From Edaphobacter sp. (GTDB taxonomy: Bacteria; Acidobacteriota; Terriglobia; Terriglobales; Acidobacteriaceae): a stretch of DNA of 64,000 nt. Position 1 is the stretch's first letter. Each line of letters begins with the position of its first letter. Shown one piece after another: positions 9,269 to 61,603 of this stretch. The notes under the pieces were generated by a model. It was not told the DNA's origin, did no database searches, and saw only the letters and a program-made list of their open reading frames with translations. The stretch covers positions 1-64,000 of the forward strand of contig JAOAPB010000060.1 of NCBI GenBank assembly GCA_025462645.1. The letters are read 5' to 3'. The translations under genes were made by a program, and so were the position numbers.

Positions 9269-10267
9269 CTACCGGACCGGTTCGTACACGAGAATCTCAG
9301 CGGATTGCGATCCTTGCTTTCGCACCGCAACGTACAACTTATCGAGTTCCGCCGAGAACAACCCCGTTCGCGCACCGCTTACTGTCTTAACTCGGGCGAT
9401 CTCCTCATAGTGGTCGGGGTCCCGCCGTTGGAACACAGCGATTCCGCCTTCTCCTCCGATCGCATAGATGCGGTGACGATGGGCGTCGTAGAACACATCG
9501 TCGCAATCGCCGATTGCGGACAGACTCGCAACTCGCTTGCCGTTCACCGTGTCGAGCACAATGAGGCGCGCCGGAAAGCGGGTGATCACGAATAACCGAT
9601 AGGTGCCTTCGTCCAGGGCCATCGGATAGTTGGCTAGCGGACCTCCCGTACTCCACGATGCCAATATCGATCGAGCCTCGCGATCCACGACCGCGATCTT
9701 GCGGGCTCCAGGCAGATTGACAAAGATCCTCGGTCCATTCTTTTCGAGTTGAAAGGATTCGGGATGAGCGTCAAGTCTGATCTCTCCCAGCTTCGCTCCA
9801 TCCTGGTCAAATTCACTCAGAGCGCCCCCTCCGTAGCCCACCCAGATGTGGCCGCTGTCTGGATCGAAGCGGAGGTTATCGGCATCATCGCCATAGGCTA
9901 TCGATTTGAGCATCTTCCAGGACGCCGCATCGAACTCACGGACCGAGCCGTCTTTGCCATTTGCTACGAAGAGACGATTGGATGAAGGAATGTAAGCGAT
10001 GCCCTGAGGCTCCGCCAATCCGCTTATGGAATGGATCCGCTTGTTCTCTTTCAAGTCGATGATTTCGAGCGAGTTGTTTCCGAGGGCCGCGACAAAGAGG
10101 CGCTGGCCTTTCAGATCGATGGAAAGATGGTCGATGCGACCCAGAACGTCGGGCAAAGGGATCGTGGCAACCAACTTAAGAGGCTCGGCGTTTGCAGACT
10201 GCGCGGAAGAAACAGTTGGCCAACCGCAGAGCGACAATAAAAGAATAATCAAGATAGTTTTGCGCAT
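9269..10267 (-). CDS. Secreted YncE-like beta-propeller protein
   Basis: The ATG at 10267 is preceded by GGGGAG at seven bases and gives a clear signal peptide (MRKTILIILLLSLCGWPTVSSAQ). The rest is made of repeated blades of about 40 residues: GRIDHLSIDLKGQRLFVAAL, GIAYIPSSNRLFVANG, RFDPDSGHIWVGYGG, DEGTYRLFVITR. This is typical of seven-bladed YncE/NHL-like propellers in the periplasm. Function is probably binding or scaffolding; no catalytic motif was seen. It follows another propeller gene with a 14-base gap. Similar propellers sit next to Oar-type receptors here and at 34402-35874. Confidence 0.85.
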   Translation of the reverse strand: MRKTILIILLLSLCGWPTVSSAQSANAEPLKLVATIPLPDVLGRIDHLSIDLKGQRLFVAALGNNSLEIIDLKENKRIHSISGLAEPQGIAYIPSSNRLFVANGKDGSVREFDAASWKMLKSIAYGDDADNLRFDPDSGHIWVGYGGGALSEFDQDGAKLGEIRLDAHPESFQLEKNGPRIFVNLPGARKIAVVDREARSILASWSTGGPLANYPMALDEGTYRLFVITRFPARLIVLDTVNGKRVASLSAIGDCDDVFYDAHRHRIYAIGGEGGIAVFQRRDPDHYEEIARVKTVSGARTGLFSAELDKLYVAVRKQGSQSAEILVYEPVR

Positions 10268-23442: not shown

Positions 23443-23700
23443 CTGAAGGCGGCCTATTGGAAAGGCGATGTATCGGCCCAGGACGAATACCCGTTGAAGC
23501 TGAGCAAAGTCGATTCAGTCTATGGGCCGCTTTCGTTCCTTGTCCCACTACTTCGCATTTCGAATCTCGTGCTTCCCATTGTTGCGTCGATTGAGCCCTA
23601 GAGGCTGTAAATTTGCGAACTGGCCTGCGCCTCAACCATTGAGCCTTTGCTGTTGACGGCAGTTGTTGTCCTCTGCCCCTGAGCCTCGCTCCCTTTTTTC
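23443..23700. other. Intergenic stretch without recognised gene
   Basis: A plus-strand frame from 23443 to about 23600 (AYWKGDVSAQDEYPLKL, then GPLSFLVPLLRISNLVLP) has no start codon and no recognised relatives. Nothing else is supported before the repeat element that begins at 23701. Confidence 0.4.
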
Positions 23701-24013
23701 CCTGTCAAGCCCCTGGAGCCGAAACTAAGACGCAGCTCCGGACGCAAATCAAACAAAAACAAAGCCTTAGGCTCCGAAAATAGTCTTCCGCAAAGTGGCA
23801 TAGTAGTTTTACTCAATCGGCTATAGTTAATACAGAGTCAGAGAAAGCCCCGGCCAATCACCGGGGCTTCTCTCTTTAAAACCAATTAACCTTTTAGAAA
23901 GACGACTTTAGCCGTAACCCATTTAGAATGACGAATTTGCAGCGATAGATTCGTTTAAGTCGATGAATTCAGATGACTTGCAGCCAAAGTACCCCCCGGG
24001 GGGGGAGGGGGTC
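23701..24013 (+). repeat. Composite intergenic element, copy A
   Basis: The first of three related copies. In order it has CCTGTCAAGCCCC at 23701 and a conserved box, GTGGCATAGTAGTTTTACTC, near 23798. Next come CAATCGGCTATAGTTAATACA with a -10-like TATAGT and a GC-rich hairpin at 23841-23872. Two imperfect repeats follow (TTTAGAAAGACGACTTT at 23894 and TTTAGAATGACGAATTT at 23922). The end is a C/G tract (CCCCCC then GGGGGGGGAGGGGG at 23992-24011). Copy C matches the conserved box at nearly every position. No protein is encoded. Confidence 0.8.
23841..23876 (+). terminator. Hairpin inside repeat copy A
   Basis: GAGA-A-AGCCCCGG pairs with CCGGGGCT-TCTC around the 7-base loop CCAATCA and is followed by TCTCTTT. 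It could end transcription from the -10-like box 30 bases upstream. The stem sequence differs from those of copies B and C, but the position and pairing are the same. Confidence 0.65.
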
Positions 24014-24382
24014 CTACGCAAGCAGTGATCGTAGTTCATAACAGACTCTGGGGCGCCAGTTCACACACACGCGAACCAAGAGGTGTGAGGCTGAGGGTTC
24101 CCTTGTCTGAATGATGAGACCAAAGAGCTTGGCAGTAACCAAGCGCAGATTGAACCTCCGCCACTGACAGCCACGGTTCGTCTCTTGTCCTCAAGAACCA
24201 GAGGGACTATCGGACAAACTCTAGCGAGGTCAGTGTTCGAAGAATATGACTACACCACGAGAAAGCGCAAAGACTCCTTTGATGTAAGAGACAAGAACAT
24301 AATTTCCCGTTCATCGATGCTGTGGGAGGATGATCACTGGAAGTTTCAGCAGGTCAGGAATATCTCCGGATGCCGGTAGCAA
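24014..24382. other. Intergenic stretch without recognised gene
   Basis: No supported gene is seen. The plus-strand frame at 24185-24379 (MSSRTRGTIGQTLARSVFEE) has no recognised relatives and no ribosome site. The LysR gene ends at 24383 on the minus strand. Confidence 0.4.
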
Positions 24383-58718: not shown

Positions 58719-58733
58719 CCGTTATCGGTAACG
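58719..58733 (+). promoter_or_regulatory. LacI-type operator candidate CCGTTATCGGTAACG
   Basis: CGTTATCGGTAACG (58720-58733) is a 14-base palindrome with one mismatch and a central CG, as bound by many LacI-family repressors. It lies between the TonB-receptor promoter and its start codon. A related site (CCGATATCGTTACCC on the minus strand, 11 of 15 identical) overlaps the promoter of the second PfkB gene. The LacI gene is 1.6 kb away. Confidence 0.55.
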
Positions 58734-58750
58734 TAACTAGCGTTTCTAAG

Positions 58751-58862: not shown

Positions 58863-59163
58863 CCTGTCAAGCCCCGACAGCGCAATTGAAGAGCTGTTGT
58901 CAGCGGCAAACCACACAAATAGAGATACTTACGGTCAATAAAAAATTTTTGGAAATCTGCCGATGAGTTATCTCCAATCAGTTAAAATAGAAATAGTGAA
59001 CAAAAGGGATAAGGCCCAGTGACAACGCTGGGCCTTATCCCTTTTAGATTGACGAATTTACCCGTAAGGCGAATGAATGCACGACTTTACAGAGGTCTAT
59101 TTTTTTATCTATATGAAAACATGATACTTGTCGACCACACCCCCCCGGGGGGTACCCCCTTGG
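58863..59163 (+). repeat. Composite intergenic element, copy B
   Basis: Starts with CCTGTCAAGCCCC (58863). A box related to the one in copies A and C follows (CTGCCGATGAGTTATCTCC, then CAATCAGTTAAAATAG with -10-like TAAAAT). Next come a perfect 18-base-arm hairpin (59002-59045), AGATTGACGAATTTACCCG and GCACGACTTTAC segments and the C/G tract CCCCCCCGGGGGGTACCCCC near 59140-59159. The tract orientation is reversed relative to copies A and C. It ends three bases before the stop of the PfkB gene on the other strand. Confidence 0.75.
59002..59045 (+). terminator. Perfect 18-pair hairpin inside repeat copy B
   Basis: AAAAGGGATAAGGCCCAG (59002-59019) pairs perfectly with 59028-59045 around the 8-base loop TGACAACG. 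Its flanks are A-rich and T-rich, so it works as an intrinsic terminator on either strand. It separates the TonB-receptor promoter from the PfkB gene end. Confidence 0.75.
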
Positions 59164-61313: not shown

Positions 61314-61603
61314 CCCACACCCCCCTCCCCCCCGGGGGTACTTGGGCGTAACTCTATTATTTACAGAAACCTACAGGCATGGTCTACCTAAAGTCGTACA
61401 AACAAACAACTTATAGGCAAAGTCGTCTTTATAAAGGGGTTAGATCTCCTTGAAGACAAAAGAAAGCTCCGATTGCTTGATCGGAGCTTTTCTTTTTGAT
61501 CTATTTTGATCTATGTATTGATTATAGCTGGTTGAGCAAAACTCCTATGCCACGTCGATCCTATTTGTTTTCATAGGGTTATGCTATTCAGAGGCTTGAC
61601 AAG
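61314..61603 (-). repeat. Composite intergenic element, copy C
   Basis: On the minus strand it starts CTTGTCAAGCC at 61603, four bases after the stop of the glycosidase gene. It continues with GTGGCATAGGAGTTTTGCTC and CAACCAGCTATAATCAATACA (-10-like TATAAT), and a hairpin at 61490-61463. Then come AACCCCTTTATAAAGACGAC with TTTGCC, a second CGACTTTAGG and the C/G tract CCCCCGGGGGGGAGGGGGG ending near 61317. It agrees with copy A at about nine in ten positions across the conserved box. Confidence 0.8.
61463..61490 (-). terminator. Hairpin inside repeat copy C
   Basis: AAAGCTCCGAT (61463-61473) pairs with ATCGGAGCTTT (61480-61490) around a 6-base loop. The A-rich and T-rich flanks make it a bidirectional intrinsic terminator. 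It follows the glycosidase gene and also stands downstream of the -10-like box of copy C. Confidence 0.75.

Follow-up and report, generated by a model that had tools for sequence, protein, structure and literature searches.

A dispersed intergenic repeat with a covarying hairpin, found in one acidobacterial family and upstream of a family of zinc-finger-like genes

Dispersed intergenic repeats are common and rarely tied to a gene that explains them, RAYT/REP being the model case. Is the intergenic unit that recurs in the window, a 64,000-nucleotide stretch of Edaphobacter sp. DNA (contig C45 of a 5.96-Mb host genome in 136 contigs), another repeat of this kind, and can a gene be tied to it? 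The preliminary description had reported three copies, A, B and C, with a common order of features; all three are present in the window and the order holds in each. The element is intergenic, measures ~270–310 bp and runs from a TGTCAAG end, which is the start of copy A, through a conserved box, a -10-like hexamer, a covarying terminator-like hairpin and ~30-bp direct repeats to a C/G palindrome. The features of the window are given below, where R1 denotes a covariance model built from 23 copies (120 positions, 9 pairs) and z the comparison of a fold with dinucleotide shuffles.

23598..24051, + strand: 454-bp element with inverted ends (TIRs), a MITE, carrying copy A (from the flanks of A-like copies; right TIR 24030-24049)
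23701..24013, + strand: copy A, core element (40 scored genomic places at 89-100% identity; R1 match 23791-23911, E 1.9e-23)
23795..23816, + strand: conserved box of A, GTGGCATAGTAGTTTTACTCAA (72 genomic matches, control 0)
23822..23827, + strand: -10-like hexamer TATAGT of A (read in the sequence)
23840..23875, + strand: terminator-like hairpin of A (z -5.5; terminator-like match 23845-23869)
23887..23985, + strand: ~30-bp direct repeats of A, TAACCnTTTAGAAAGACGACTTT type, third copy degenerate
23987..24010, + strand: C/G palindrome AAGTACCCCCCGGGGGG... at the 3' end of the A core (58 genome matches, control 0)
58865..59159, + strand: copy B, core, long type, TGTCAAG ~90 bp before the box (71% identity to a copy on contig C48)
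58983..58988, + strand: -10-like hexamer TAAAAT of B
59002..59045, + strand: hairpin of B, 20 pairs (z -8.6; not listed as terminator-like)
59138..59159, + strand: C/G palindrome of B
61319..61601, - strand: copy C, core, short type (R1 61417-61557, E 4.2e-14)
61532..61553, - strand: conserved box of C (0 mismatches)
61521..61526, - strand: -10-like hexamer TATAAT of C
about 61463..61492, - strand: terminator-like hairpin of C (terminator-like on both strands; z -4.8)

The repeats of A read AAAGACGACTTT, and the element around it ends in a diverged left TIR, CTAGAGGCTGTAAATTTGCG, and a right TIR, ...CGTAGTTCATAACAGACTCTGG. Copies A and C have the exact box in common, and that of B has diverged to CTGCCGATGAGTTATCTCCAA. 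Copy B is not listed by R1 at E ≤ 10 in the search of the host genome; it is counted as a member, more weakly than A and C, because the order of features is common to all three copies and because it shares 71% identity over 176 bases with the copy G000:C48:71204. Copy C begins a few bases past a stop codon, and its hairpin is followed by direct repeats and a C/G end near 61319. Across 23 aligned copies, the TA and the final T of the -10-like hexamer are invariant. The three hairpins fold better than their dinucleotide shuffles, with 0/200 shuffles as good each time, and the C/G ends fold no better than theirs (z +1.0 for A, +1.1 for B and -0.7 for C). Close to copy B, a palindrome, CGTTATCGGTAACG, lies at ~58720-58735 of the window before a large ORF, and the related genomes G023, G010 and G021 have comparable palindromes in the corresponding position; we take it to resemble a LacI-type operator.

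The description of a three-copy element did not survive a search for further copies. In the host genome, R1 gives 147 rows at E ≤ 10, of which the 141 at E ≤ 0.015 are counted as copies; adding B by hand makes a working set of 142. The 72 host-genome matches to the box were obtained at ≤3 mismatches against a reversed control, and the 58 to the C/G motif at ≤1 mismatch. A consensus was drawn from 93 copies, the first set of copies unlike A, with six A-like copies still inside. Its 5' part reads CAAAAAyC-TGTCAAGCCCC, a TAAC... repeat, GTGGCATAnTAGTTTnnnTCAA, a -10-like TAnAnT and ATACAGAGTCA; the hairpin reads GAAAGCCCCGG...CCGGGGCTTTC; and the 3' part consists of two direct repeats, TAACCCnTTTAGAAnGACGAnTTTagcCG, ~30 bp apart, a degenerate third and then CTTACGCCCAAAGTACCCCCCGGGGGGTACCCCC. 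Within the 93 copies the repeat type tracks the 3' end, CTTT-type repeats occurring with AAGTA (32 vs 3) and TTTT-type repeats with AAATA (8 vs 0; Fisher p 1e-6), in a test whose motifs were picked post hoc, which ignores kinship and which leaves 50/93 copies unclassed. Another dispersed repeat, of type GTCATCCTGAGCGNAGCGAAGGA, often precedes the element (e.g., at loci L112, L116 and L117).

Two layers make up the working set, 55 A-like copies and a remainder of 87 that includes B and C. The A-like copies are a MITE of ~455 bp between the inverted ends CTAGAGGCTGTAATGAAC.../...GTTCATAACAGGCTCTAG, and copy A, which had been taken for a full unit, is the middle of such a larger element. Allowing ≤4 mismatches, at least one end is present in 48 of the 55 copies, both in 27 and neither in 7 (some at contig ends); genome-wide there are 72 TIR matches at ≤2 mismatches against 1 for a control, and 21 paired TIRs span 405-461 bp. 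A CTAG-like sequence stands at both ends of the A-like element and could belong to the TIR rather than to a target-site duplication. We presume that this MITE belongs with IS5-like transposons, which it resembles in its length, inverted ends and CTAG-like termini and in the high identity of its scored places; it differs in that no TIR pair of transposon length was seen in the 136-contig assembly (list read by eye), and in that 86/87 other copies carry neither end of the A-type TIR, the last having a single weak match.

No other inverted ends were seen by eye in the 87 non-A copies, and 76 of them yielded no target-site duplication, the mean longest shared flank word being 4.03 as against 3.97 (sd 0.09) for re-paired flanks. 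Their best mutual homology begins between -60 and -41 in 46/81 and breaks off between +210 and +234 in 39/81, the rest stopping inside or extending beyond. In 56/87 of these copies TGTCAAG is placed exactly 44 bp ahead of the R1 start, in 11 it is 87-89 bp ahead and in 6 at other distances; none was found in 14. Given these homology ends and a median nearest-neighbor identity of 77%, the non-A copies look like older, discrete units. At locus B, the element is missing from G023, G010 and G021 (3/3), all of which keep the neighboring genes in synteny. The earlier idea of a MITE-like mobile unit thus stands for A, given the TIRs around it, and is plausible for the others from their unit-like homology ends and the empty site at B, without the support of a target-site duplication. 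By a longest-ORF heuristic, the ORF upstream of the non-A copies is on the same strand in 65 cases and on the opposite strand in 22 (p 4e-6), and with co-directional neighbors only the same heuristic gives 33 vs 14 (p 0.008); the element thus sits mainly after gene 3' ends.

Selection on structure, proposed from the three hairpins of the window, is borne out by the alignment of 23 copies, in which 7/9 hairpin pairs show compensatory changes and 95.1% of cells pair; all five measures beat 500 shuffles, none of which (0/500) reaches any of them. In the 93-copy set, a stem of at least 8 pairs is found in 75/93 copies as opposed to 5.4% of base shuffles, and there are 86 distinct stems. The hairpin sequences had also been called unrelated, which is right for B and C and wrong for the family, where the copies inspected are mostly GCCCCGG/CCGGGGC variants. 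RNAalifold returned no structure (energy 0) over the whole 282-column alignment of the 93 copies, and covariation is therefore claimed for the hairpin alone. A sigma-70 consensus scan (-35 and -10 at 16-18 nt) listed no promoter within A, B or C, leaving the -10-like hexamer only. Terminator-like matches (GC stem, T-rich tail) number 5 around A as against 0.8 in shuffles, and in the stretch with B and C they are not above shuffles (4 vs 2.6, sd 1.6); the hairpins of A and C are among them, C on both strands, and that of B is absent. A tiny RNA ending at its own terminator, as first suggested, is a predicted product that fits this anatomy. A sigma-54 reading of the box was rejected, the spacing being two bases too long against the consensus.

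Acido-1 (RF01686) and Acido-Lenti-1 (RF01687), which PMC2864571 reports as non-coding elements from acidobacteria, had been put forward as alternative identities; they drop out, as neither is hit when the window is searched at gathering score and eight element loci at E ≤ 5. The window has only a tRNA at Rfam gathering score, and at E ≤ 5 there are eight matches, all well below the cut-offs; the element matches no Rfam family. A search of the open-licence literature found no description of the element or of the gene family described below.

Among 299 genomes of the class, the element is present in 25 (E ≤ 1e-4, stricter filters), all from one family: 21 of the host genus, three of genus g16 and one of genus g27. 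A search of named genomes by one exact pattern gave 35 stretches, and the two acidobacterial ones were checked; Granulicella sp. palsa_287 (L200) carries a real element (E 3.9e-7), the other stretch (L193) does not, and the protein motif introduced below is absent from both. The sister species G097 and G134 have 38 matches each, most at syntenic places (coordinates read by eye). Of 15 G097 loci, 13 have a G134 partner with more than 1 kb aligned, 10 of these 13 being continuous over most of the 3-kb stretch, and the other two have a flank in common with G134 in wider stretches, so that 15/15 share at least one flank, which argues for little recent movement in that pair. Over longer periods, then, the element does move, and in G097/G134 it does so slowly. 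A Y1/RAYT mobilizer was considered and rejected, Y1 transposase counts not tracking element counts in 16 genomes of the genus (rho -0.36, p 0.17): G002 and G014 have 50 and 55 elements and 0 Y1 genes, and G010 has 0 elements and 8 Y1 genes. No transposase could be tied to the non-A copies in this comparison, which covered the Y1 type.

Several element copies directly precede genes of a family whose products share the motif CxH...C...CxxH, more fully CRHIKTNGxxC...CxFH...ALEDRESVQ...RAxxLLYGLQLAS; the window itself holds no member. At 23/30 gene loci, some of them partial or with stop codons, including some of the 23, an R1 match (E ≤ 0.05) lies just upstream on the same strand, 17 to ~370 bases from the gene match, and the other seven include three with a weaker match at that position (E 0.13-1.5) and one truncated where its contig stops. 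From genome counts, an upstream element is expected by chance at ≤0.5% per gene, or 0.7% for the host with its 141 copies, and we have little doubt that the leader link between element and gene family is real. Read by eye, most gene loci show TGTCAA, box, -10, hairpin, repeats, C/G, RBS and ATG in this order; a rough automated tally of the 26 loci that have the motif and sufficient upstream sequence found TGTCAA/TTGACA in 22, a stem of at least 8 pairs in 22 and the C/G end in 18. The repeat variant tracks the protein subfamily (7/10 vs 0/16, p 2e-4), in a test with motifs chosen post hoc and phylogeny not accounted for. The gene family (alignment A4) occurs in 21/25 genus genomes and 0/16 outside, and the element in 20/25 and 0/16; element and gene numbers are correlated over the 25 genomes (rho 0.58, p 0.0025), with element counts that include the leaders and the host entered as at least 88.

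The proteins are 33-55% identical to the first of five aligned and have no significant match in Pfam, NCBIfam, PHROGs or PDB; a weak, sub-threshold similarity points to primase/Mcm10-type zinc fingers (E 0.03-0.4). No family member was found in the plasmids searched (E ≤ 0.1) or in the viral contigs searched. Among the non-A copies, 4/87 have a gene of this family downstream and 83/87 have no remnant of it on either side (E ≤ 0.01), the search reaching up to ~820-870 bases per side, or a shorter distance at locus ends. One pair of gene-bearing copies shows 97.5% identity over 720 bp; at the gene end, a pair of contigs shows 98.5% identity for 133 bp, beyond which the two sequences differ. We read the near-identical copies as a probable recent duplication of the gene-linked form or as assembly trouble, the latter being possible because all four contigs end inside the gene. 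The GTCATCCTGAGCGNAGCGAAGGA-type repeat is also part of the duplicated gene-bearing block.

Since it directly precedes the zinc-finger-like genes, the element looks like a gene control region that has spread on its own. We give an even chance to the reading that it is the leader/operator unit of a gene, dispersed as a gene-less repeat. The box and the -10 would then form a promoter region, with transcription starting at the -10-like site, and the terminator-like hairpin would be an attenuator that stops most transcripts; the ~30-bp direct repeats would be protein-binding sites, and the C/G palindrome would close the unit. The zinc-finger-like protein would bind the repeats in its own leader and thereby set read-through past the hairpin, an autoregulation. 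Binding is suggested because the repeats vary with the protein subfamily, and it is something we infer, as the protein has no significant database match. The gene-less units would be leader copies spread as DNA, now mainly after gene 3' ends, each of which could fire a terminated RNA of ~45-60 nt and/or provide an additional site of termination or protein binding. In the lineage of copy A, the unit would have ended up within a TIR-bearing MITE and multiplied along with it.

The competing reading to be taken most seriously, possible though not the one we favor, holds that the element is an ordinary non-autonomous mobile element of the MITE/REP kind, moved by an unrelated transposase and linked to the genes through chance promoter use in one family. 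The A-like copies in their TIR-bearing element with CTAG-like ends, the dispersal of the units and the empty site at B in relatives are what it predicts well; it does not readily explain a link in 23/30 gene loci, with proteins at 33-55% identity to the first of the five aligned, nor the 86/87 non-A copies without a TIR, the missing target-site duplication and Y1 transposases that do not follow copy number. Rather unlikely in our estimate is a gene-repeat partnership without a recognizable transposase, in which the CxH-CxxH zinc-binding protein would bind the repeats of its own leader and maintain or mobilize genome-wide binding and termination sites, in the manner of RAYT/REP on a different protein. 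If the copies were instead genes for small regulatory RNAs, each would give a trans-acting RNA of ~45-60 nt ending at the covarying hairpin. The fixed order of -10-like hexamer and terminator-like hairpin, as well as the covariation, would suit such a family, but only ~20 bases separate the -10 from the stem, which leaves little sequence for trans action, the conserved repeats lie past the hairpin and Rfam holds no match; we consider it improbable.

Still more improbable is the view that the gene-less copies are leaders remaining after loss of the downstream gene. The same leader does precede the genes of the family, and the gene-linked copy on C111 has an extra ORF within the unit; yet 83/87 non-A copies lack a gene remnant within the distance searched, homology between copies often ends at the C/G end, and B is absent where relatives retain the neighboring genes. 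The least probable of all the readings takes the element for an attC-like site at which recombination occurs or exchangeable blocks of genes meet, with gene content changing exactly at the element ends. Its orientation after gene 3' ends would be in keeping with such a role, as would 2/15 sister-species loci at which homology ends at the TGTCAAG end and differing genes follow, a count from five loci examined in detail that were chosen for breaks or differences; against it stand the fewness of such cases and the continuity of 10/13 aligned pairs. At the loci concerned, L375/L376 and L381/L382, homology between the sister species ends near 9680/9705 and 9300/9657, respectively.

The dispersed leader/operator unit that we favor can be set beside known systems. 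In REP/RAYT, many short dispersed intergenic units are accompanied by a low-copy gene beside the unit. REPINs (PMC8049555) and their RAYT (TnpA-REP) partners are matched here by numerous short units between genes and by a low-copy gene family that has the same unit next to it at 23/30 gene loci. The present gene differs in encoding a CxH-CxxH protein and not a Y1/HUH transposase, and the present unit in having a promoter region, a terminator-like hairpin and a repeat array, with Y1 counts that do not follow it. The leader attenuators of autoregulated genes share with it a promoter region, a terminator-like hairpin and a gene start with binding-site-like repeats; unlike them, the leader described here also exists as ~83 gene-less non-MITE copies, and to our knowledge ordinary attenuators do not occur as dispersed gene-less copies. 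A repeat with the anatomy of promoter, hairpin and binding sites thus marks unnamed zinc-finger-like genes and, within a single acidobacterial family, as many as ~140 loci in a genome. Binding of the repeats by the protein, if it occurs, would make this either a regulator whose network of sites has spread by itself or a new class of gene-repeat partnership; at minimum, recurrent intergenic DNA of a soil lineage is annotated, with a covarying motif that is absent from Rfam 15.

Several copies carry additional sequence inside the unit. Between the hairpin and the repeats, the gene-linked copy on C111 (L269 1133-1339) has a second small ORF, MFDHTGKPIGNPHQ..., with an RBS-like sequence of its own, and a segment containing AGGAGG-like motifs is added at this place in the gene-less copies at L118, L262 and L261. 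Two elements of G097 each hold an insert of ~2 kb within their 3' repeats (L377 9740-11899 and L379 7424-9457), where the sister genome G134 is uninterrupted, with overlaps of 8-10 bases; the ORF in each insert presumably encodes a transposase of the IS1595/ISXO2 type, which it resembles.
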